DNA of 64,000 nucleotides from Dehalococcoidia bacterium (GTDB lineage: Bacteria > Chloroflexota > Dehalococcoidia > Bin125), in assembly GCA_022826965.1 (NCBI GenBank), contig JAJDTU010000002.1, positions 62,001-126,000 of the forward strand, in the 5' to 3' direction. Below are positions 3,530-14,874 of this stretch, piece after piece; the stretch's first letter is position 1; the number at the start of each line of letters is the position of its first letter. The notes beneath the pieces are model-generated. The model was not told the origin of the DNA, did not search any database, and saw only the letters and a list, made by a program, of their open reading frames with translations. A program made the position numbers and the translations under genes.

Positions 3530-4726
3530 ATGTCTCTCACCGTGCATGGCATTCCCGTCATCGACATCGACTCCCACTACACCGAGCCGCCCGACCTCTG
3601 GACCTCGCGCGCGCCGGCCAAGTACAAGGACGCCGTCCCGCACATCGTGCTCAACGATGAGGGCCAGCAGCGCTGGCAGGTGCTCGACGACATCGACTTC
3701 GGCCCTCCTGGCTTCACCGTCGTCCGCGAAGACGGCACGAAGGAGTACGGCTCGATCTCTCTCGCTTCCTTCGAGCAGATGAGCAAAGCCGCAACCGATC
3801 CCAAGGAACGGCTCAAGCTGCTCGACCAACTCGGAATCGCCCAGCAGATCGTCTACCCCAACGTGGCCGGCTTCGGATCGCAGAACTTCGTCAAGATCGA
3901 GGACCACGAGCTGCGCAACGTCTGCTGCACGGTCTACAACGACGCGATCGCGGAATTCCAGGCCGAGGGCGAAGGCCGTCTCTACCCGCAGGGCCTGGTG
4001 CCGTTCTGGGACATTCCCGCCGCAGTCGACGAACTGCAGCGAATCAAGGACCTCGGCATGACCGGGATCACCATGTGCGACACGCCGGAGGCGTTCGGCC
4101 TGCCCCACCTCGGCGACCCAGCCTGGGACCCGTTCTGGGATGCCTGCCAGGACATGGAAATGCCGGTCAACTTCCACATCGGCGCCGGCGCCGGCGTGGC
4201 CGACAAACTGCTCTGGCCCGGCTACGGCCCGCAGCGCTCGTTGGCCCTGATCTCGATCAGCCTGTTCATCACCAACTTCAAAGTGATCATGAACCTGATC
4301 TTCTCCGGCCTCTGCGAGCGCTACCCGAACATCAACTTCGTATCCGTCGAATCGGGCATCGGCTGGGTGCCGTTCCTGCTCGAGGCGATGGACTACCAGT
4401 TCGAGGAGACCGTCCCGACCGAGCGCGAGGGTCTGACGATGAAGCCGTCGGAGTACTTCCGCCGCCAGATCTTCGCTTCCTTCTGGTTTGAGGACTTCGG
4501 TCCCCGCGCCACGATCTCCGCGATCGGCGAGGACAACGTGATGTTCGAGACCGACTTCCCCCACCCCACCTGCCTCTACCCGAGGGCGCAGGAGCACATC
4601 ACGGAAGTCCTCACCGACCTAGACGAGGGCATCCGTGAGAAGGTCCTCCGCACCACGGCGGAACGCATCTACCACCTGCCGCCCGCCCCGGCCTCGATCT
4701 ACGAAAGCGCCGCCGCGGGAGGATAA
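3530..4726 (+). CDS. Amidohydrolase-2 family metal-dependent hydrolase
   Basis: A 398-residue TIM-barrel hydrolase or decarboxylase of the amidohydrolase-related (PF04909) type. The N-terminus IPVIDIDSHYTEP carries the first metal-binding region, VNFHIGAG in the middle holds a conserved histidine, and FETDFPHP from residue 339 supplies the late aspartate. Homologues act on aromatic carboxylates or unknown cyclic substrates; the reaction here cannot be named. The start ATG has a GGAG ribosome site 8 bases upstream. The next gene follows after 5 bases. Confidence 0.85.
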   Translation: MSLTVHGIPVIDIDSHYTEPPDLWTSRAPAKYKDAVPHIVLNDEGQQRWQVLDDIDFGPPGFTVVREDGTKEYGSISLASFEQMSKAATDPKERLKLLDQLGIAQQIVYPNVAGFGSQNFVKIEDHELRNVCCTVYNDAIAEFQAEGEGRLYPQGLVPFWDIPAAVDELQRIKDLGMTGITMCDTPEAFGLPHLGDPAWDPFWDACQDMEMPVNFHIGAGAGVADKLLWPGYGPQRSLALISISLFITNFKVIMNLIFSGLCERYPNINFVSVESGIGWVPFLLEAMDYQFEETVPTEREGLTMKPSEYFRRQIFASFWFEDFGPRATISAIGEDNVMFETDFPHPTCLYPRAQEHITEVLTDLDEGIREKVLRTTAERIYHLPPAPASIYESAAAGG

Positions 4727-4731
4727 GAACC

Positions 4732-5355
4732 ATGGCCGAAACACCGGAACCCGTCGCGGTGTCAGAGCTGAAGACACCCGTTCGAGTCGAGGCCCGTGAA
4801 GGGTTCCGCGTGTGGGTCGAATTCACCGATGGCGTGGCCGGCGAGGCGGACATCTCCGACTTCGCCAGTCAGCCGGGGTTCTCATGCTGGAGTGATCGGG
4901 CGCGCTTCGAGAGCGTCTGCATCAACGAGAATGACTACCTGGACTGGGGCGTCGGCGAGGACAGTTGGGAGTCGGCAATTGATCCCGACGAGATCTACTC
5001 GCGGATCACCGGGTTATCGATGGAAGAAATCTATCCCGAATGGGCGGCTCAACAGCGTGATGGCCCCAGCCCAACCGAGGTCACTGCGGTTGAGCCACGC
5101 GACGGCTTCACGGTCTGGCTGAGGTTCGCCGACGGCACATCAGGTGTTGCTGATCTCACGTTCCTTGCGGACAGCCCCGCGTTCGCAGGCTGGCAGGATC
5201 GAGCGTACTTTGAGTCGGTCCGTGTTGTTCCTGGTGGCGACGTTGTATGGGGAGACGATCTCTATCGGTGTGGATACTCGCTCTACATCGATCTGACGGG
5301 CCTGCCTTGGGAGGTGGTTTGGGCGCGCATGCGCGAGAAGATCGTTGGTGTCTGA
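4732..5355 (+). CDS. Tandem DUF2442 protein
   Basis: A 207-residue protein with two copies of the ~75-residue DUF2442 fold: residues 10-95 (VEAREGFRVWVEFTDGVAGEADISDF) and 120-195 (VEPRDGFTVWLRFADGTSGVADLTFL). DUF2442 is normally a single-copy protein of 75-100 residues that often sits beside DUF4160, the arrangement found here. Its role is unknown, although the pair is often discussed as a possible toxin-antitoxin or host-interaction module. The end overlaps the DUF4160 gene by 8 bases. Confidence 0.75.
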   Translation: MAETPEPVAVSELKTPVRVEAREGFRVWVEFTDGVAGEADISDFASQPGFSCWSDRARFESVCINENDYLDWGVGEDSWESAIDPDEIYSRITGLSMEEIYPEWAAQQRDGPSPTEVTAVEPRDGFTVWLRFADGTSGVADLTFLADSPAFAGWQDRAYFESVRVVPGGDVVWGDDLYRCGYSLYIDLTGLPWEVVWARMREKIVGV

Positions 5356-9781: not shown

Positions 9782-10525
9782 ATGGTTGACCGACTGAAGG
9801 ACAAAGTCGCGCTGATCACCGGCGGATCCCGCGGCCAGGGAGCAGCAGAAGCAGAGCTGTTCGCCGCCGAAGGCGCCCGGGTCGTGATCGCGGACGTGCT
9901 AGACGCTGATGGCGCCGAAACCGCCGAGAGGATCGGGGATGCCGCAACGTACCACCACCTCGATGTCACCGACGAAGACGCCTGGCACGCCCTCGTCGCC
10001 GAGATCGTGGAGCAGCACGGCAAGCTCGATGTCCTGGTCAACAACGCCGGCATCTACCGCAACGCGTCAATCGTCGAGATGACCATAGAGATGTACCGCC
10101 AGGTGATCGACATCAACCAGATTGGCGTCTGGCTGGGCATGAAGGCGGTCGGACCGCAAATGATTGCGCAGGAGTCCGGTTCGGTCGTCAACATCTCCTC
10201 GACCGCCGGCTTCCGCGGCGGCGGAGGCTCGATCGCCTACACCGCCAGCAAGTTCGCCGTTCGCGGCATGACCAAGGTCGCCGCCCGCGAGTGGGGCCGC
10301 TACAACATCCGAGTCAACAGCATCCATCCCGGACCAATCGACACGATGATGCTCCACCAGGTCCCTGGCTTCGAGGCCGACAGCGAGCGCTTCCTCCGCA
10401 ACACCCCGCTCAGACGGGCCGCGGACCCCTCCGAGGTCGCCTACCTCGCCCTCTACCTCGCCAGCGACGAATCCAGCTTCAGCACCGGAGCCGAATTCAT
10501 CGTCGACGGCGGCGGCCTGGCCTAG
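9782..10525 (+). CDS. Short-chain dehydrogenase/reductase (RGQG type)
   Basis: A 247-residue SDR with cofactor loop TGGSRGQG at 13-20, NNAG, and the catalytic YTASK. IADVLDADG after strand 2 points to NAD(H). The RGQG loop and the INQIGVWLGM and RVNSIHPGPIDT segments are shared with the four tandem SDRs at 46.6-49.9 kb, so it belongs to the same paralogue family, resembling 3-alpha/20-beta-hydroxysteroid dehydrogenase-type enzymes. A GGAGCAGGAG ribosome site precedes the start. Its last 4 bases overlap the convergent PIN remnant. Confidence 0.85.
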   Translation: MVDRLKDKVALITGGSRGQGAAEAELFAAEGARVVIADVLDADGAETAERIGDAATYHHLDVTDEDAWHALVAEIVEQHGKLDVLVNNAGIYRNASIVEMTIEMYRQVIDINQIGVWLGMKAVGPQMIAQESGSVVNISSTAGFRGGGGSIAYTASKFAVRGMTKVAAREWGRYNIRVNSIHPGPIDTMMLHQVPGFEADSERFLRNTPLRRAADPSEVAYLALYLASDESSFSTGAEFIVDGGGLA

Positions 10526-10869
10526 CCAGTAGCGTCAAGCACCGCCAGGAATTCGGGCGCGCGCAGGATCCGAACGCCATCAAGCTCCCCCAGCGGCAGC
10601 AAATGCTTGCGGTCGCCGGTCACGAGATAGTCGGCCTCGGCGTGAACGGCGCACTCGAGCACGCGGTTGTCAGGGTGATCGCCAGGAACGACGGTGATAG
10701 TCCGGGGCGGGTCGATGATCGTCGCAAGCTCTCGAAGGTCCCAAAGCACTTCGGCGATCTCGGTTGCCGATCGACCGAATTTCCTGCCAAGAACCCCTTC
10801 TACTTCGCGAAAGATCAGGTCGGAGCTGATGAGCTCGAACTGCCGCGTTAAGGCAGCCTCCAACACGCG
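10522..10869 (-). pseudogene. 3' part of a PIN-domain toxin gene split by the IS1595-type element
   Basis: This holds the C-terminal ~115 residues of a PIN-domain protein, beginning RVLEAALTRQFELISSD and keeping DHPDNRVLECA and ADYLVTGD, which contain the later acidic active-site residues. An open frame runs upstream to 10974, but that part is element sequence and lacks the first PIN strand with its catalytic aspartate. The missing start (VKAVLDSNVIVSGVLF) lies at 14551-14620 on the same strand. Removing the element and one copy of the 8-bp duplication joins the halves in frame (ERVL-EAAL) into a normal 136-residue protein. The gene is therefore an insertion-inactivated toxin, COG1569-like by my reading. 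Confidence 0.85.
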
Positions 10870-10893
10870 GGGGTTTATATACCTCGCTTGACC
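10862..10893 (+). repeat. Left target-site duplication (10862-10869) and left terminal inverted repeat (10870-10892)
   Basis: AACACGCG at 10862-10869 is repeated directly at 14551-14558. The element end that follows reads GGG, two variable bases, TTATATAC, one variable base, TCGCTTGAC. It matches the inverted right end at 20 of 23 positions. The inner TTGACC resembles a promoter -35 box pointing into the element. Confidence 0.85.
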
Positions 10894-11016
10894 ATTTAGC
10901 TCGACGCTAACTGTACGTCGATTCGAAGCTCCGGTATCGTTGTCCGTTTGTCCCCCTATGATCGCAAGACACACAGGCGTCCCAGGCGCGTCAGCGTCAC
11001 ATGGCGGGGAGACTCA

Positions 11017-11388
11017 ATGACTACTGCTGCTCACGAGCGTCAGCACGATTTGATAGAACAGACGCTGCACGAAATTCGTGGGGATGTGAAGTGGCTGCGT
11101 GAGAGCCAAGAGCAGATGCGCTCTAAGCAGGAGCAAATGCGCTCAGAGCTTACGAGCATCAAGCGTCAGCAAGTCGAGTTGCGCAAGGCACAGGGTCGAA
11201 TGAAGGACCAACTCGACCACCTCGAACTCACTGTAGATGGCATCAAGCAGGACGTGACGGTCGGTGTCAGGATGATTGCCTCCCTTGCGATGGTCTCGAT
11301 TGATACGGGGGTCAGCGTCGAGAAAAAGCAGAATGCGCTCAAGTTGCTCTTGAAGGATCTCCAAGATCAAGTGGATGCGAGGGCGTAA
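11017..11388 (+). CDS. Small coiled-coil protein (transposon passenger)
   Basis: A 123-residue protein. Residues 5-75 are a continuous heptad-rich helix with a repeated EQMRSKQEQMRSE segment, then KAQGRMKDQLDHLELTVDGIKQDV. A short hydrophobic stretch (VGVRMIASLAMVSI) follows, then a basic tail. The ATG at 11017 has a GGGGAG site upstream; the longer frame from 10948 starts in arginine-rich junk. Function unknown. The GC content is lower than the chromosome average, as elsewhere in the element. Confidence 0.7.
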   Translation: MTTAAHERQHDLIEQTLHEIRGDVKWLRESQEQMRSKQEQMRSELTSIKRQQVELRKAQGRMKDQLDHLELTVDGIKQDVTVGVRMIASLAMVSIDTGVSVEKKQNALKLLLKDLQDQVDARA

Positions 11389-11475
11389 ATGCCTCGGAAG
11401 CCAATGCTCGAGCCGACGACGAAGACGCCAGAAGAGATCGCGAAGATTCTCCTGCGGCCGATCAAGAAAAAGTAG
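11389..11475 (+). CDS. Possible 28-residue peptide coupled to the coiled-coil gene
   Basis: An ATG directly after the TAA of the coiled-coil gene (TAAATG) opens a 28-codon frame, MPRKPMLEPTTKTPEEIAKI then LLRPIKKK, ending in TAG. The proline- and lysine-rich sequence with a short amphipathic helix reads like a real small protein rather than noise. The immediate stop-start junction would allow reinitiation. There is no independent evidence of translation. Confidence 0.4.
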   Translation: MPRKPMLEPTTKTPEEIAKILLRPIKKK

Positions 11476-11501
11476 AGATCGGCCCAGTCCGCGAAGCAGT
11501 T

Positions 11502-12758
11502 CTACCCGCACGTCCGCGTTGCGACCGGTTCAGCGCTGATGTCCACGAACGTGAAGATCAGGGTGTTGCTGCCCTTGGCGCTGTTGAGTGACATTGTGTG
11601 CGAGTGGGCGCGCCGCGCCGCCTGATAGAAGTCTCGGGCCTGACTCCCGCTCAGGGTTGCCGAACTGGCGGAGACGCTGAACGAGTACGACCGTCCGCCG
11701 AGCGTCGTCCTGACCGTGCCGGCGGTCAGGCTGTGGTAGTCGCCCTGTTCGTGCAGGCGGATTGACACTCTCCAGCCACTCGCCGAGGGGCTACAGGTGA
11801 CCTTCATCTCGGCTGTGAACACGGCGGTCGTACCGATTGCCGTGCCGTTGATCGTCCTGGTGCCGCTCATCGGCGGTTGGACCGCTTCCGGTTGCGGAGT
11901 AGTCGAGCGCTGGGATTGCCCAGTGGTTCCGGTCTGACCTTGCGGAGACGCCGGCTGTTGGACCCTCACGCCGCAAACATGTAGAGACGACGGCAGTCTG
12001 TCGAGTTGGTCCATCTCGAAACGCGCGGTGATCGAACCGCCGTTGTGTAGCGGCAAGGCAATGACGACGGCTTCCGATTGCAACGCGTCTTGCCAGAAGT
12101 TGCGCGCCTGGGTTCCGCTCAGCGTCGCCTTGGTGCCAGGTGAATCTGCGACGGGCGCCTGATTCACGCTGCCGTCGTGCCGGGCAACTCGGAATGTGTA
12201 CACCTTCTTGTTGACCGCTACCGACGTGGACGCGCCGGACCGCAGCACGCGGCGAACATTTCCAAACCCCGATTGCCGATAGGTCGAGACAATCTCGGCT
12301 TCCCAGTTGGAGGCGTTGGACGGGCAAGAGACTCGGAGGGTTGAGTGGCCGGAGCCGGTGACACTCTGGGATCCACCTGTTGTTGGTTGGGCAGGTTCCG
12401 ACCGCTCCGTTTGCCGGGATGTCGATGTGCCCTGTGGCCCGCCCTCCAGCGTCATCTCTGTGCCTTCGAGGAGGGATGACGCCGGGAACGTCACGGTGAA
12501 TGGTGACGACTGGTACCAGGCGTTCCGTTGCGGGTTCCGAGGAAGATAGCGGGCTTCGACCAGCTGCCGGTCGCCCCAGTCGTCGCCGTCGCGCTGCTGC
12601 AACGAGAACTCCACGCGGCCATCTGAGAGTTCTCGGGCGTTGATTCTGACTTCGGTCGTGATGTCGTCCGTCGATGCAGCGTGGGCGCCGAGTGCGGCCA
12701 CTGCGATGAGCAGCGCGGCAATGAGCAAGAGTCCGACGCGTTTGCGGAGTCTCGACAC
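11502..12758 (-). CDS. Secreted protein with duplicated C-terminal domain and one diverged IAR/EFG repeat (transposon passenger)
   Basis: A 418-residue exported protein read from a GTG at 12758 with a GGAAGGGGG ribosome site. The signal peptide covers about residues 1-28 (basic VSRLRKR, then a leucine/alanine core ending GAHA). Residues 36-90 form a diverged copy of the repeat found in the proteins at 6588 and 44714 (RINAR, GRVEFSL, YLPRN, WYQSS). Two homologous ~120-residue beta-rich units follow, ending LSGTQARNFWQDA and LSGSQARDFYQAA, joined by serine/threonine/glutamine-rich linkers. Four cysteines, two per unit (VSCPS/HVCGV and VTCSP/RTCG), could pair outside the cell. Function unknown. 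Confidence 0.7.
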   Translation of the reverse strand: MSRLRKRVGLLLIAALLIAVAALGAHAASTDDITTEVRINARELSDGRVEFSLQQRDGDDWGDRQLVEARYLPRNPQRNAWYQSSPFTVTFPASSLLEGTEMTLEGGPQGTSTSRQTERSEPAQPTTGGSQSVTGSGHSTLRVSCPSNASNWEAEIVSTYRQSGFGNVRRVLRSGASTSVAVNKKVYTFRVARHDGSVNQAPVADSPGTKATLSGTQARNFWQDALQSEAVVIALPLHNGGSITARFEMDQLDRLPSSLHVCGVRVQQPASPQGQTGTTGQSQRSTTPQPEAVQPPMSGTRTINGTAIGTTAVFTAEMKVTCSPSASGWRVSIRLHEQGDYHSLTAGTVRTTLGGRSYSFSVSASSATLSGSQARDFYQAARRAHSHTMSLNSAKGSNTLIFTFVDISAEPVATRTCG

Positions 12759-12792
12759 GGTGAGACCCCCTTCCTGGCACGAGATGCGCGCT

Positions 12793-12897
12793 GTTGCCAG
12801 ACAAACGGCTCCCGAGGGATCGCCACGAAGGGGGCGCGGCAGCGGCATCCCTCAGAATGCAGCGACCCGTTCGGGCAAACTCCGTTTGTCTGGCAAC
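12793..12897. repeat. Nested inverted repeat, possible structured leader or small RNA
   Basis: GTTGCCAGACAAACGG at 12793-12808 is the perfect inverse of CCGTTTGTCTGGCAAC at 12882-12897. Inside it GAGGGAT at 12814-12820 pairs with ATCCCTC at 12847-12853. Sequence just outside the 16-bp arms is also loosely similar in inverted orientation (ATCT...CAGG). On the minus strand the block lies 34 bases upstream of the GTG of the secreted protein, so it could be its structured 5' leader, a small RNA, or a MITE-like remnant. No target duplication flanks it. Confidence 0.6.
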
Positions 12898-12927
12898 GGG
12901 AAGGGTATCTGCTCAGGTTCGGTCATT

Positions 12928-12959
12928 CGCAGTTATTACGGATTCACGAAATAACTGCG
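12928..12959. repeat. 10-bp AT-rich inverted repeat
   Basis: CGCAGTTATT at 12928-12937 is the perfect inverse of AATAACTGCG at 12950-12959 with a 12-base spacer. The A/T-rich core and position between divergent transcripts would suit an operator or a promoter-proximal cruciform. The role is inferred. Confidence 0.5.
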
Positions 12960-12971
12960 CTAGGATACGAA

Positions 12972-13000
12972 GAAGCCCGCACCAGAGGGGCGCGGGCTTC
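12972..13000. repeat. GC-rich 9-bp hairpin upstream of the tRNA
   Basis: GAAGCCCGC at 12972-12980 pairs with GCGGGCTTC at 12992-13000 around an 11-base loop. It looks like a terminator stem but lacks a U-run on either strand; on the minus strand it is followed only by TTCGTATCC. It could isolate the tRNA transcript from its surroundings. Confidence 0.5.
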
Positions 13001-13096
13001 AGCAGTGGTGAGGCAGGATTTTCATCCGGCGCTAGGAACCTGAACGCCTCCTAGTGTACCAGATGATCCTTCCCGCCCTGGCCGCTGCATTGTCGC

Positions 13097-13183
13097 GGGG
13101 GCATGGCGAAATTGGCAAACGCAGCGGATTACCAATCCGTGGCTGGGCTCAGCTTGAGGGTTCGAATCCCTCTGCCCCTACCA
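13097..13183 (+). tRNA. Class II tRNA with leucine-type body and anticodon ACC
   Basis: A complete 87-base cloverleaf with encoded CCA. Acceptor stem GGGGGCA/TGCCCCT (7 bp, first pair G-U), discriminator A. D arm GCG/CGC with loop AAATTGGCAAA. Anticodon stem GCGGA/TCCGT with 7-base loop TTACCAA, so U33 is followed by anticodon ACC. Long variable arm GCTG/CAGC plus two unpaired bases. T arm GAGGG/CCCTC with loop TTCGAAT. A long variable arm means Leu, Ser or Tyr type. A73, the A15-U48 tertiary pair and two unpaired bases before the T stem favour leucyl-tRNA synthetase. ACC would read the glycine codon GGU. The gene lies inside the IS1595-type element. Confidence 0.85.
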
Positions 13184-13209
13184 AACCCTATCTGATTTCG
13201 ATCGCCTCC

Positions 13210-13446
13210 TTACTGGCCTTGTGATTCCTCATCGAGTTGGCGACATAGCGAGCGGAACTCGTCTGCATCGAACAGTGCGAGCATCGTGGTTGAAGGGCGA
13301 AGCTCTATGTCCAAGGGCCCCTGGAGCTGGTCCCTCGCTGTGAGTTCGACCAGCACTGTGTGATTCGGCCTGTCGTCTACCGGGGCCGGAACTGAATGAA
13401 TACGAGCGCTGTTGATCACAAAAAACACCTGTTGTCTCGCTGCCAT
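13210..13446 (-). CDS. Hypothetical 78-residue protein (transposon passenger)
   Basis: A small soluble protein MAARQQVFFVINSARIHSVP... with alternating beta-like segments (HTVLVELTARDQ, GPLDIELRPSTTMLALF) and a C-terminal helix EFRSLCRQLDEESQGQ. An AAAGGA ribosome site lies 8 bases upstream of the ATG. It reads in the same direction as the transposase and ends 26 bases from the tRNA. No family recognised; it could be a regulator of the element, but nothing in it shows that. Confidence 0.55.
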   Translation of the reverse strand: MAARQQVFFVINSARIHSVPAPVDDRPNHTVLVELTARDQLQGPLDIELRPSTTMLALFDADEFRSLCRQLDEESQGQ

Positions 13447-13542
13447 TGTTCAATCCTTTCGCTTCCCATGCTGTGGGCCAGGCCCACGTGAGCCTATGGC
13501 TAACCCGGATATCTGAGCAACTGATCGGGGTGCCGCGCTCGA

Positions 13543-14475
13543 TTACGCGATCAACCACGAGTACGGCAGGCGCCTACCGATTCCGCCGAGGAAGAGTTCG
13601 GCCATGATCGCCTCGGTGTCCATGTCGCGCATCGAGGCGCGCGCGGCGAACTCGCGGCAGTAGCGCCAGAGATGCTTGTCAGACCACTGGTGGAAGGTCC
13701 CGACCAGCCCGCGCTTCATCAGCGACCAGAACGACTCGATGCCCTGGGTGTGTACGTCTCCCCGGACGTACTCGCCGGCCGAGTGGTCCACGAATTCTCG
13801 ACGATGCCCGAGGAGCATCGAGTACCCGGAATGCCCGTCGGTGAACACCCGGCTGAATTCGACCACGTTTCTCTCGATCACCCTGGTCAGAGTGGGTACG
13901 TTTGCCACGTCGATTGGCAAGGCGCGAATTTCTCCGGTTGTTCGTGATTTGATCCCAACCACAGGAGTTTTGCCGACTGGTCCACCACTGATATTGGTTC
14001 TCTTTGAAGCGTGCTTGTTCTTTTCCTTGCCGCCCACGTAGGTCTCGTCCACTTCAACCGGGCCCCACATCAGGCCGTCGCCGGCGGCCATCGCTTCTCG
14101 GATACGGTGCGCCAGGAACCAAGCGGACTTCTGAGTGATCTTGAGATCCCGGTGCAGCTTCATCGACGACACGCCCTTGAGCGAAGTGGCGAACAGGTAG
14201 ATGGCGATCGCCCACTTGCGCAGCGGAATCTTGGACTGGGCCATGACGGTGTTCATTCTCACGCTGAAGTACTTGCCGCAGTCGATGCAGCGCCAGGGCA
14301 TTGGCTTGCGCGATGCGACCTCGTACACCGACTTGCTATCGCAGTGGACGCATCGGGCGCCGTCCGGCCAGCGGTTCCCCTCGAACCATTTGCGGGCCGA
14401 ATCCTCGTCCGGGAACTTCTCGAACAGCTCGAGCAACGAGATTCCTTCTCGATGCGCCTTACCTGGTGCCGTCAT
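13543..14475 (-). CDS. IS1595-family (ISXO2-like) transposase
   Basis: A 310-residue DDE transposase that catalyses cut-and-paste movement of the element. An N-terminal zinc ribbon has Cys-42, Cys-45, Cys-63 and Cys-66. The catalytic domain shows VDETYVGGK (Asp-143), FTDGHSGY (Asp-213) and GIESFWSLMKRG (Glu-247), plus the KNKHA segment typical of the ISXO2-like domain. It appears full length and uninterrupted, so the element may still be active. The ribosome site GGAAAGGGG precedes the ATG. Transcription probably starts from a promoter whose -35 lies at the edge of the right terminal repeat. Confidence 0.93.
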   Translation of the reverse strand: MTAPGKAHREGISLLELFEKFPDEDSARKWFEGNRWPDGARCVHCDSKSVYEVASRKPMPWRCIDCGKYFSVRMNTVMAQSKIPLRKWAIAIYLFATSLKGVSSMKLHRDLKITQKSAWFLAHRIREAMAAGDGLMWGPVEVDETYVGGKEKNKHASKRTNISGGPVGKTPVVGIKSRTTGEIRALPIDVANVPTLTRVIERNVVEFSRVFTDGHSGYSMLLGHRREFVDHSAGEYVRGDVHTQGIESFWSLMKRGLVGTFHQWSDKHLWRYCREFAARASMRDMDTEAIMAELFLGGIGRRLPYSWLIA

Positions 14476-14488
14476 GACTGCCCCTTTC

Positions 14489-14532
14489 CGCTTGTTTAAT
14501 CAAGCGTAAGGGATAAATCAGGATTCGTCAAG
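14489..14532 (-). promoter_or_regulatory. Probable transposase promoter with overlapping inverted repeat
   Basis: On the minus strand TTGACG (14532-14527) and TACGCT (14508-14503) are spaced by 18 bases. The -35 overlaps the inner part of the right terminal repeat. A 6-bp inverted repeat, CGCTTG at 14489-14494 and CAAGCG at 14501-14506, covers the expected start site and could bind a repressor or fold in the leader. Confidence 0.45.
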
Positions 14533-14558
14533 CGATGTATATAAGTCCCAACACGCGT
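14527..14558 (-). repeat. Right terminal inverted repeat (14528-14550) and right target-site duplication (14551-14558)
   Basis: Read inward from 14550 the end is GGG, AC, TTATATAC, A, TCGCTTGAC, matching the left end at 20 of 23 positions. AACACGCG at 14551-14558 is the second copy of the 8-bp duplication. The outer two bases also happen to extend the direct repeat to CCAACACGCG. Confidence 0.85.
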
Positions 14559-14620
14559 TCCTCGTTACCCGAGAAGAGCACGCCAGATACGATGACGTTT
14601 GAATCCAAGACAGCCTTCAC
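14551..14620 (-). pseudogene. 5' part of the split PIN-domain toxin gene
   Basis: A GTG at 14620-14618 overlaps the TGA of the antitoxin (GTGA). It reads VKAVLDSNVIVSGVLFSGNE and then ERVL before entering the transposon. VLDSNV with its aspartate is the first strand and first catalytic residue of PIN ribonucleases. The frame runs on into the element for GLIYIA and stops. The rest of the gene is at 10522-10869; this piece alone cannot fold. Confidence 0.85.
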
Positions 14621-14874
14621 CTATAGAGTTCCGGATGTTCGGCGCGAAACTCTTCAATGAGCCGTGGGACATCCTCGCGAGTGATGCCGTGTTTCTTTGC
14701 CAATGCCTGCCCGTACTTGAACGTCGCTTGCCAACGCTCTTCTCGCAGCACGCGCTCGATGGCGTCAAGGACGAACTCGTCCACCGTGCAGCCTCTTCTG
14801 CCCGTCACCGCATTGATGGACTCAACTTGATTGCTGGTAAGCGTGACGGTGATGTCTATCGTCTCGTCAGTCAT
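14617..14874 (-). CDS. Ribbon-helix-helix type antitoxin
   Basis: An 85-residue protein. Residues 3-13 (ETIDITVTLTS) form a beta strand, followed by two helices with a VDEFVLDAIERVL segment, the shape of CopG/RHH repressors. The C-terminal half (EDVPRLIEEFRAEHPEL) is the toxin-binding-like tail. Its stop overlaps the PIN start by 4 bases. This gives a classic antitoxin-first operon in which the antitoxin should bind the toxin and repress its own promoter at 14909-14937. With the toxin broken, the gene is now an orphan antitoxin. Confidence 0.75.
   Translation of the reverse strand: MTDETIDITVTLTSNQVESINAVTGRRGCTVDEFVLDAIERVLREERWQATFKYGQALAKKHGITREDVPRLIEEFRAEHPELYR

Follow-up and report, generated by a model that had tools for sequence, protein, structure and literature searches.

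A leucine-type tRNA with a glycine-codon anticodon inside an IS1595-family transposon, and its relatives with other anticodons

Our analysis of 64,000 nucleotides of a Dehalococcoidia genome (the window) finds a tRNA gene that combines the class II body of a leucine tRNA with the anticodon ACC, and that is almost certainly the passenger of a complete IS1595-family transposon. Judged by sequence, leucine-type tRNAs of this kind recur in at least three bacterial phyla. The most informative finding, which lay beyond the reach of the first-pass annotation, is that different elements carry different anticodons. The window tRNA belongs to a family with leucine-type bodies in which the anticodon has been switched away from leucine and varies between copies; the full explanation, with leucine charging and missense decoding included, we hold at about even odds.

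Results

Over the whole window, ARAGORN calls a tRNA-Gly(acc) at exactly 13097-13183 on the forward strand, and the same span is the sole Rfam match above gathering score within the 64 kb (RF00005, the Rfam tRNA model; 57 bits, E 1.2e-9). Every arm of a class II tRNA can be recognized (acceptor, D arm, anticodon arm, long variable arm, T arm), as can A73 and an encoded CCA, and the 7-nt anticodon loop, UUACCAA, keeps U33 intact. The first-pass annotation had described a complete, well-formed cloverleaf with encoded CCA, a leucine-type class II body and ACC in a 7-base loop, and each part of that description holds. It had also raised the prospect of a different anticodon beside an intact U33, and the ARAGORN placement, ACC with U33 in place, speaks against this.

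The nearest of the host's normal tRNAs is Leu-UAA (77% identity), compared with 67-68% for the best non-leucine ones. A73, the long variable arm, G18/G19 and the T-loop contacts of tRNA-Leu are all found, and the alignment places G1-U72 and G2-C71 at the acceptor end. The anticodon is neither of the leucine types NAG or YAA, however, so that as decoded the gene is not a tRNA-Leu. Conversely, ACC pairs with GGU as a tRNA-Gly anticodon should, but a tRNA-Gly has a class I body with U73 and C2-G71, whereas this one has a class II body with A73 and G2-C71. The host assembly (3.0 Mb in 14 contigs, 97% complete) encodes a full normal set, including Gly GCC, CCC and UCC and all five Leu isoacceptors, which makes the window tRNA an extra. 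A sigma-70 promoter scan of the window gave no match on the tRNA strand.

The ends of the transposon are defined by paired repeats. GATGTATATAAGTCCC lies upstream of the transposase, its mirror GGGGTTTATATACC lies 3.7 kb leftward, and AACACGCG stands outward of both; these flanked, mirrored repeats delimit the element (Table 1). Its terminal inverted repeats are 23 bp long and agree at 20 of 23 positions, the left one being of the GGG..TTATATA type seen in the other IS1595 elements examined. The element has the zinc ribbon, the DDE_Tnp_IS1595 domain, the inverted repeats and the 8-bp target duplication of the family, and it contains the tRNA, an open transposase frame and two ORFs without a Pfam match. 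The earlier reading of the tRNA as transposon-borne is thus confirmed by a transposase matching PF12762 and PF12760, by terminal inverted repeats and by exact 8-bp target duplications.

Table 1. Features of the transposon and its tRNA (window positions)
Feature	Positions	Strand	Evidence
Complete IS1595-family transposon, 3,680 bp, within PIN-domain gene	10870..14549		inverted repeats, exact 8-bp duplication, PF13470
Left target-site duplication AACACGCG	10862..10869		exact 8-bp match to 14550-14557, directly outside inverted repeats
Left terminal inverted repeat GGGGTTTATATACCTCGCTTGAC	10870..10892	+	20/23 complementary to right end
Passenger ORF without Pfam match	10948..11388	+	ORF list, Pfam
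Passenger ORF, 448 aa, without Pfam match	11502..12848	-	ORF list, Pfam
G+C-rich hairpin (GAAGCCCGC..GCGGGCTTC) upstream of tRNA	12972..13000	+	
Class II Leu-type tRNA, anticodon ACC, encoded CCA	13097..13183	+	ARAGORN, Rfam, host tRNA identity, alignment
Anticodon ACC (positions 34-36), U33 and A37 intact	13131..13133	+	ARAGORN, Rfam
Long variable arm, 5-bp stem	13141..13154	+	tRNA fold
IS1595-family transposase, 310 aa, apparently intact	13543..14475	-	PF12762 E 8.6e-30, PF12760 E 4.7e-8; no stops
Right terminal inverted repeat	14527..14549	-	pairs with left end
Right target-site duplication AACACGCG	14550..14557		exact copy of left one

The element evidently interrupts a PIN-domain gene: the two portions of that gene are found in the flanking stretches (10522-10869 and 14550-14874), and the PF13470 (PIN_3) match on the left flank is without its N-terminal part. 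A small probable antitoxin ORF (14617-14874) precedes the interrupted gene. A perfect 16-nt inverted repeat (GTTGCCAGACAAACGG, 12793-12808 and 12882-12897, arms 73 nt apart) is located close to where the 448-aa passenger ORF begins. A strong hairpin likewise precedes the tRNA in the other Chloroflexota elements, and no known Rfam RNA matched the region upstream of the tRNA.

The host carries a second leucine-type tRNA on another contig, with anticodon AGC, which adjoins a decayed IS1595 transposase remnant. BLAST with both host tRNAs found a GUC tRNA in one genome of the same genus (G008) and two identical CGC tRNAs in another (G011). A pattern with C36, run across 393 genomes of the class, returned only the members in these two genomes and the host, plus one false match (in G110) that was rejected as apparently coding sequence with no tRNA called. 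A scan of named genomes added ACC, GUC and CGC copies in Rhodobacteraceae bin131, CAR1_bin_2 (whose members have CGC and GCC) and an ACC copy in Acidobacteria bin61; the ACC copies of bin131 and bin61 adjoin IS1595 transposases. From the sample series, we take the bins bearing these tRNAs to be sponge symbionts. The second, different member in the host and the relatives in other genomes exclude a sequencing error, an explanation that the first-pass annotation had raised.

Our early search patterns demanded C36, and part of the C36 frequency stems from the pattern. A search with the anticodon unconstrained, which covered bin131, CAR1_bin_2 and bin61, found an AGG member in bin61, inside an element with the exact target-site duplication ATCTCGTC, as well as one GCC copy and one degenerate CGC copy in CAR1. 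Because the AGG member turned up once the constraint was lifted, a strict C36 rule was dropped, and C36 is a tendency only. The Rhodobacteraceae and Acidobacteria versions have the anticodons ACC, GUC, CGC, GCC and AGG, and several lie in or beside IS1595 elements. Some members are decayed; the one in CAR1 (C17) no longer has a T arm. The copies from G011 and bin61 do not encode the CCA. A tree of class II bodies sets the odd tRNAs apart from normal Leu tRNAs, but its support on about 90 nt is modest and the acceptor was partly fixed by the search pattern, so we place no weight on this grouping.

The plasmid collection gave no match to the window tRNA, a tight-pattern search of the genome contig collection gave no close relatives of it, and the viral contigs (33 loci) held no C36 tRNA near an IS1595 transposase. 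Three viral contigs have C36 leucine-type tRNAs and one has a UGU version. A leucine-type tRNA with anticodon UGU on a viral contig (L188 1281-1369) stands beside a distant IS1595-like transposase, where inverted repeats were sought and none was clear. Leucine-type bodies paired with an Ala, Asp, Glu or Gly anticodon were also seen in Azospirillum (where two stand in tandem), in Planctomycetota and Blastocatellia, and in further genomes and viral contigs (L081, L082, L085, L086, L090, L094, L097, L099 and L100); no IS1595 transposase match was found within the stretch covered at these loci.

Relatives of the window tRNA move with IS1595 transposons, including as a MITE. In G011, a full element (L077, from 5782 to roughly 8899; target-site duplication TTTCGGGT) carries the CGC tRNA together with a C5 methylase and a GIY-YIG protein, and the tRNA occurs again in a 407-bp MITE (L076 5780-6186) with the exact 8-bp duplication TTTCTTTC. 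The MITE interrupts an ATPase gene, and the reconstructed empty site is one continuous 618-aa ORF. Exact target-site duplications were found for L077, L134, L150 and L207. A tRNA is absent from many, or most, of the IS1595 elements in the genus and is thus an optional passenger.

Two class I tRNAs, both with an Arg-like body, are found in a further Chloroflexota element, L134 of G014, which is bounded by exact duplications CAGAGCTT; their anticodons are GAC and ACC, and strong hairpins separate the two (4711-4939). The acceptor stem of the GAC tRNA in this element recurs in the host in a weak, additional tRNA-Ser(GCU), whose class I body is also Arg-like (L047, G000:C13:371178-371248). In Acidobacteria bin61, the IS1595 transposase of an element at L150 476-3507 (exact duplication GGTAAAGG) is preceded by four consecutive tRNA-like genes (1805-2249); three of the four have expanded anticodon arms, one of these with an inserted hairpin. 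Some 10-60 bases upstream of the leucine-type tRNAs of L145 and L078 (G008, C14) lies a mini tRNA-like structure, with an acceptor-like stem and an anticodon arm and without a D or T arm. Its loop anticodon is that of the adjacent tRNA (GUC and AGC), and beside it a longer stem is kept, with a sequence that differs between the two loci.

Across eight leucine-type members, 99.4% of helix cells are paired. Double-changed cells number 28, against 10.4 in shuffles (0 of 500 shuffles reach 28), and 11 of the 20 pairs are doubly changed, again above all slid controls. The three bin131 copies are nearly identical outside the anticodon loop: 4 of the 7 loop sites vary, compared with 12 of 243 sites in the body and flanks (p=3.6e-4). 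No two of these copies agree at position 34 or 35, and position 36 is C throughout. Taken together, helix covariation and loop-concentrated variation indicate a conserved fold and a changing anticodon. Such diversification on a constant body suggests selection on the codon or the anticodon-loop ligand that is addressed. TATAAT is present just upstream in two of the three bin131 copies.

Discussion

E. coli LeuRS has been described as recognizing A73, G18:U55, G19:C56 and U54:A58, and not the anticodon (PMC9976931). All of these determinants are present in the window tRNA, and its G1-U72 wobble with A73 is also found in the host's own Leu-CAA. We propose that the window tRNA would be transcribed and CCA-mature, and that LeuRS would charge it with leucine because this enzyme recognizes A73 and the D-loop/T-loop contacts and ignores the anticodon. 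The resulting Leu-tRNA would pair through ACC with GGU, and A34 might extend its reach to other GGN codons. The expected outcome would be low-level Gly-to-Leu misreading, in competition with the three normal tRNA-Gly. In E. coli, C2-G71 keeps tRNA-Leu away from SerRS, and its absence from the window tRNA acceptor makes serine charging possible as well.

These steps merit different degrees of confidence. From its identity elements, the window tRNA is probably chargeable with leucine. As a mechanism, we favour leucylation followed by misreading of GGU, and we would give it about an even chance; that the tRNA decodes glycine codons at a level that matters is a tentative expectation, with the balance leaning against it. 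The related elements in at least three phyla, with other swapped triplets, raise the idea that a mobile element may spread code-breaking tRNAs. The broadest form of this idea, in which IS1595-type transposons spread anticodon-diversifying, leucine-charged tRNAs across phyla and impose codon-specific mistranslation on their hosts, with the codon varying by copy, is speculative and rather unlikely.

The body could instead be kept for a job other than decoding, as a decoy or substrate of a tRNA-binding protein or as a structured RNA for the transposon, which we consider somewhat unlikely. The partner might be an anticodon-loop nuclease or LeuRS itself, for example, with the anticodon free or diversifying against it. 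The constant body and changing anticodon of the three bin131 copies would fit such a role, as would the extra structured RNA upstream in some Chloroflexota elements, including the mini tRNA-like structures (G008, C14), and the three further bin61 tRNA-like genes with expanded anticodon arms. However, the leucine-type members retain U33, A37, a 5-bp stem and a 7-nt loop, as decoding expects, and a non-exhaustive search saw no partner protein common to the elements.

It is improbable that the gene is a neutral hitchhiker, a captured tRNA gene that is decaying, unexpressed, with an anticodon that has drifted. Decay of this kind would account for the CAR1 copy without a T arm, and the lack of a tRNA in most IS1595 elements of the genus is in keeping with it. 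It is difficult to reconcile with near-complete pairing and double changes at 11 of 20 pairs in eight members, with change that is concentrated in the anticodon loop rather than spread, or with recurrence in three phyla.

We also regard it as very unlikely that GlyRS charges the tRNA and that it reads GGU as glycine, as an ordinary tRNA-Gly in an unusual body would. The two anticodon bases that GlyRS recognizes, C35 and C36, are in place, but the bacterial enzyme also requires acceptor-end determinants including U73, and the window tRNA has A73, G2-C71 and G1-U72. In the alignment, moreover, the AGC and CGC sisters are without the alanine determinant G3-U70 and the GUC copies are without the aspartate determinant G73. 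The host already has three tRNA-Gly.

The first-pass annotation had also considered service to the element's own translation. The tRNA is encoded within the element, but in four tRNA-bearing transposases the cognate codons never fall at a conserved leucine (they sit where Gly, Asp, Ala or Val is conserved, or at variable sites), and the two main element ORFs use GGT for 12% of their Gly codons, compared with 20% for host ORFs nearby. We therefore rejected both transposase recoding and codon supply for the two main ORFs, and find a role in recoding the element's own genes, or in providing codons for them, highly implausible. An assembly error or chance cloverleaf, for which one could cite a genome in 14 contigs that is not closed, is practically precluded by independent members in other assemblies, by target-site duplications and covariation, and by the 57-bit tRNA score.

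Among known systems, the nearest counterparts of the window tRNA are the nematode nev-tRNAs and tRNA-ProX. The nematode nev-tRNAs are likewise class II, with a glycine (or isoleucine) anticodon, and are leucine-charged in vitro, although nev-tRNA-Gly gave no detectable mistranslation in C. elegans cells (PMC4300185). Unlike the tRNAs described here, they have the anticodons CCC and UAU rather than a set varying between near-identical copies, and they are nematode genes that the abstract does not describe as transposon passengers (PMC4300185). The tRNA-ProX of Streptomyces and Kitasatospora is bacterial and joins the body of one synthetase to another anticodon (AGC, AUU or AGU, with A34 in all), much as the window tRNA joins a leucine body to a glycine anticodon, and it mistranslates in E. 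coli (PMC11415595). It has a proline body, A33 and a dedicated, co-encoded ProRSx, and transposon carriage does not figure in the cited part of that account (PMC11415595). The window tRNA differs in its leucine body, U33 and IS1595 carriage, and no synthetase was seen among the ORFs of its element.

On the side of the carrier, IS1595-family transposons with passengers share the zinc ribbon and DDE_Tnp_IS1595 domain, GGG..TTATA repeats, 8-bp duplications and passenger ORFs, but a switched-anticodon tRNA passenger was not found for them in the open-access literature. Phage-encoded tRNAs are also tRNA genes on a mobile element; in contrast, they are not inside inverted-repeat transposons and normally have a matching body and anticodon. 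Misidentity tRNAs and passenger-carrying transposons are thus both already known. Their combination, and the swapping of anticodons, are new to our knowledge, and we know of no earlier transposon-carried tRNA family in which body and decoding identity are systematically uncoupled. Our search for reports of IS1595 tRNA passengers or anticodon-diversifying mobile tRNAs found none in the open-access literature, a coverage that makes the lack of a prior report weak evidence. With this family it becomes testable whether mistranslation or codon ambiguity can be forced on hosts by mobile elements. It also supplies naturally occurring groups of tRNAs that are almost identical and are set apart mainly by the anticodon.

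Finally, similar small passenger proteins are encoded at L075 5063-5305 (G008, ..ALLNTHPKRDDEW..) and at L184 near 6.0 kb (G004, ..SILNTKPKKREEW..). Both lie near IS1595 element ends and possibly represent a conserved accessory ORF.
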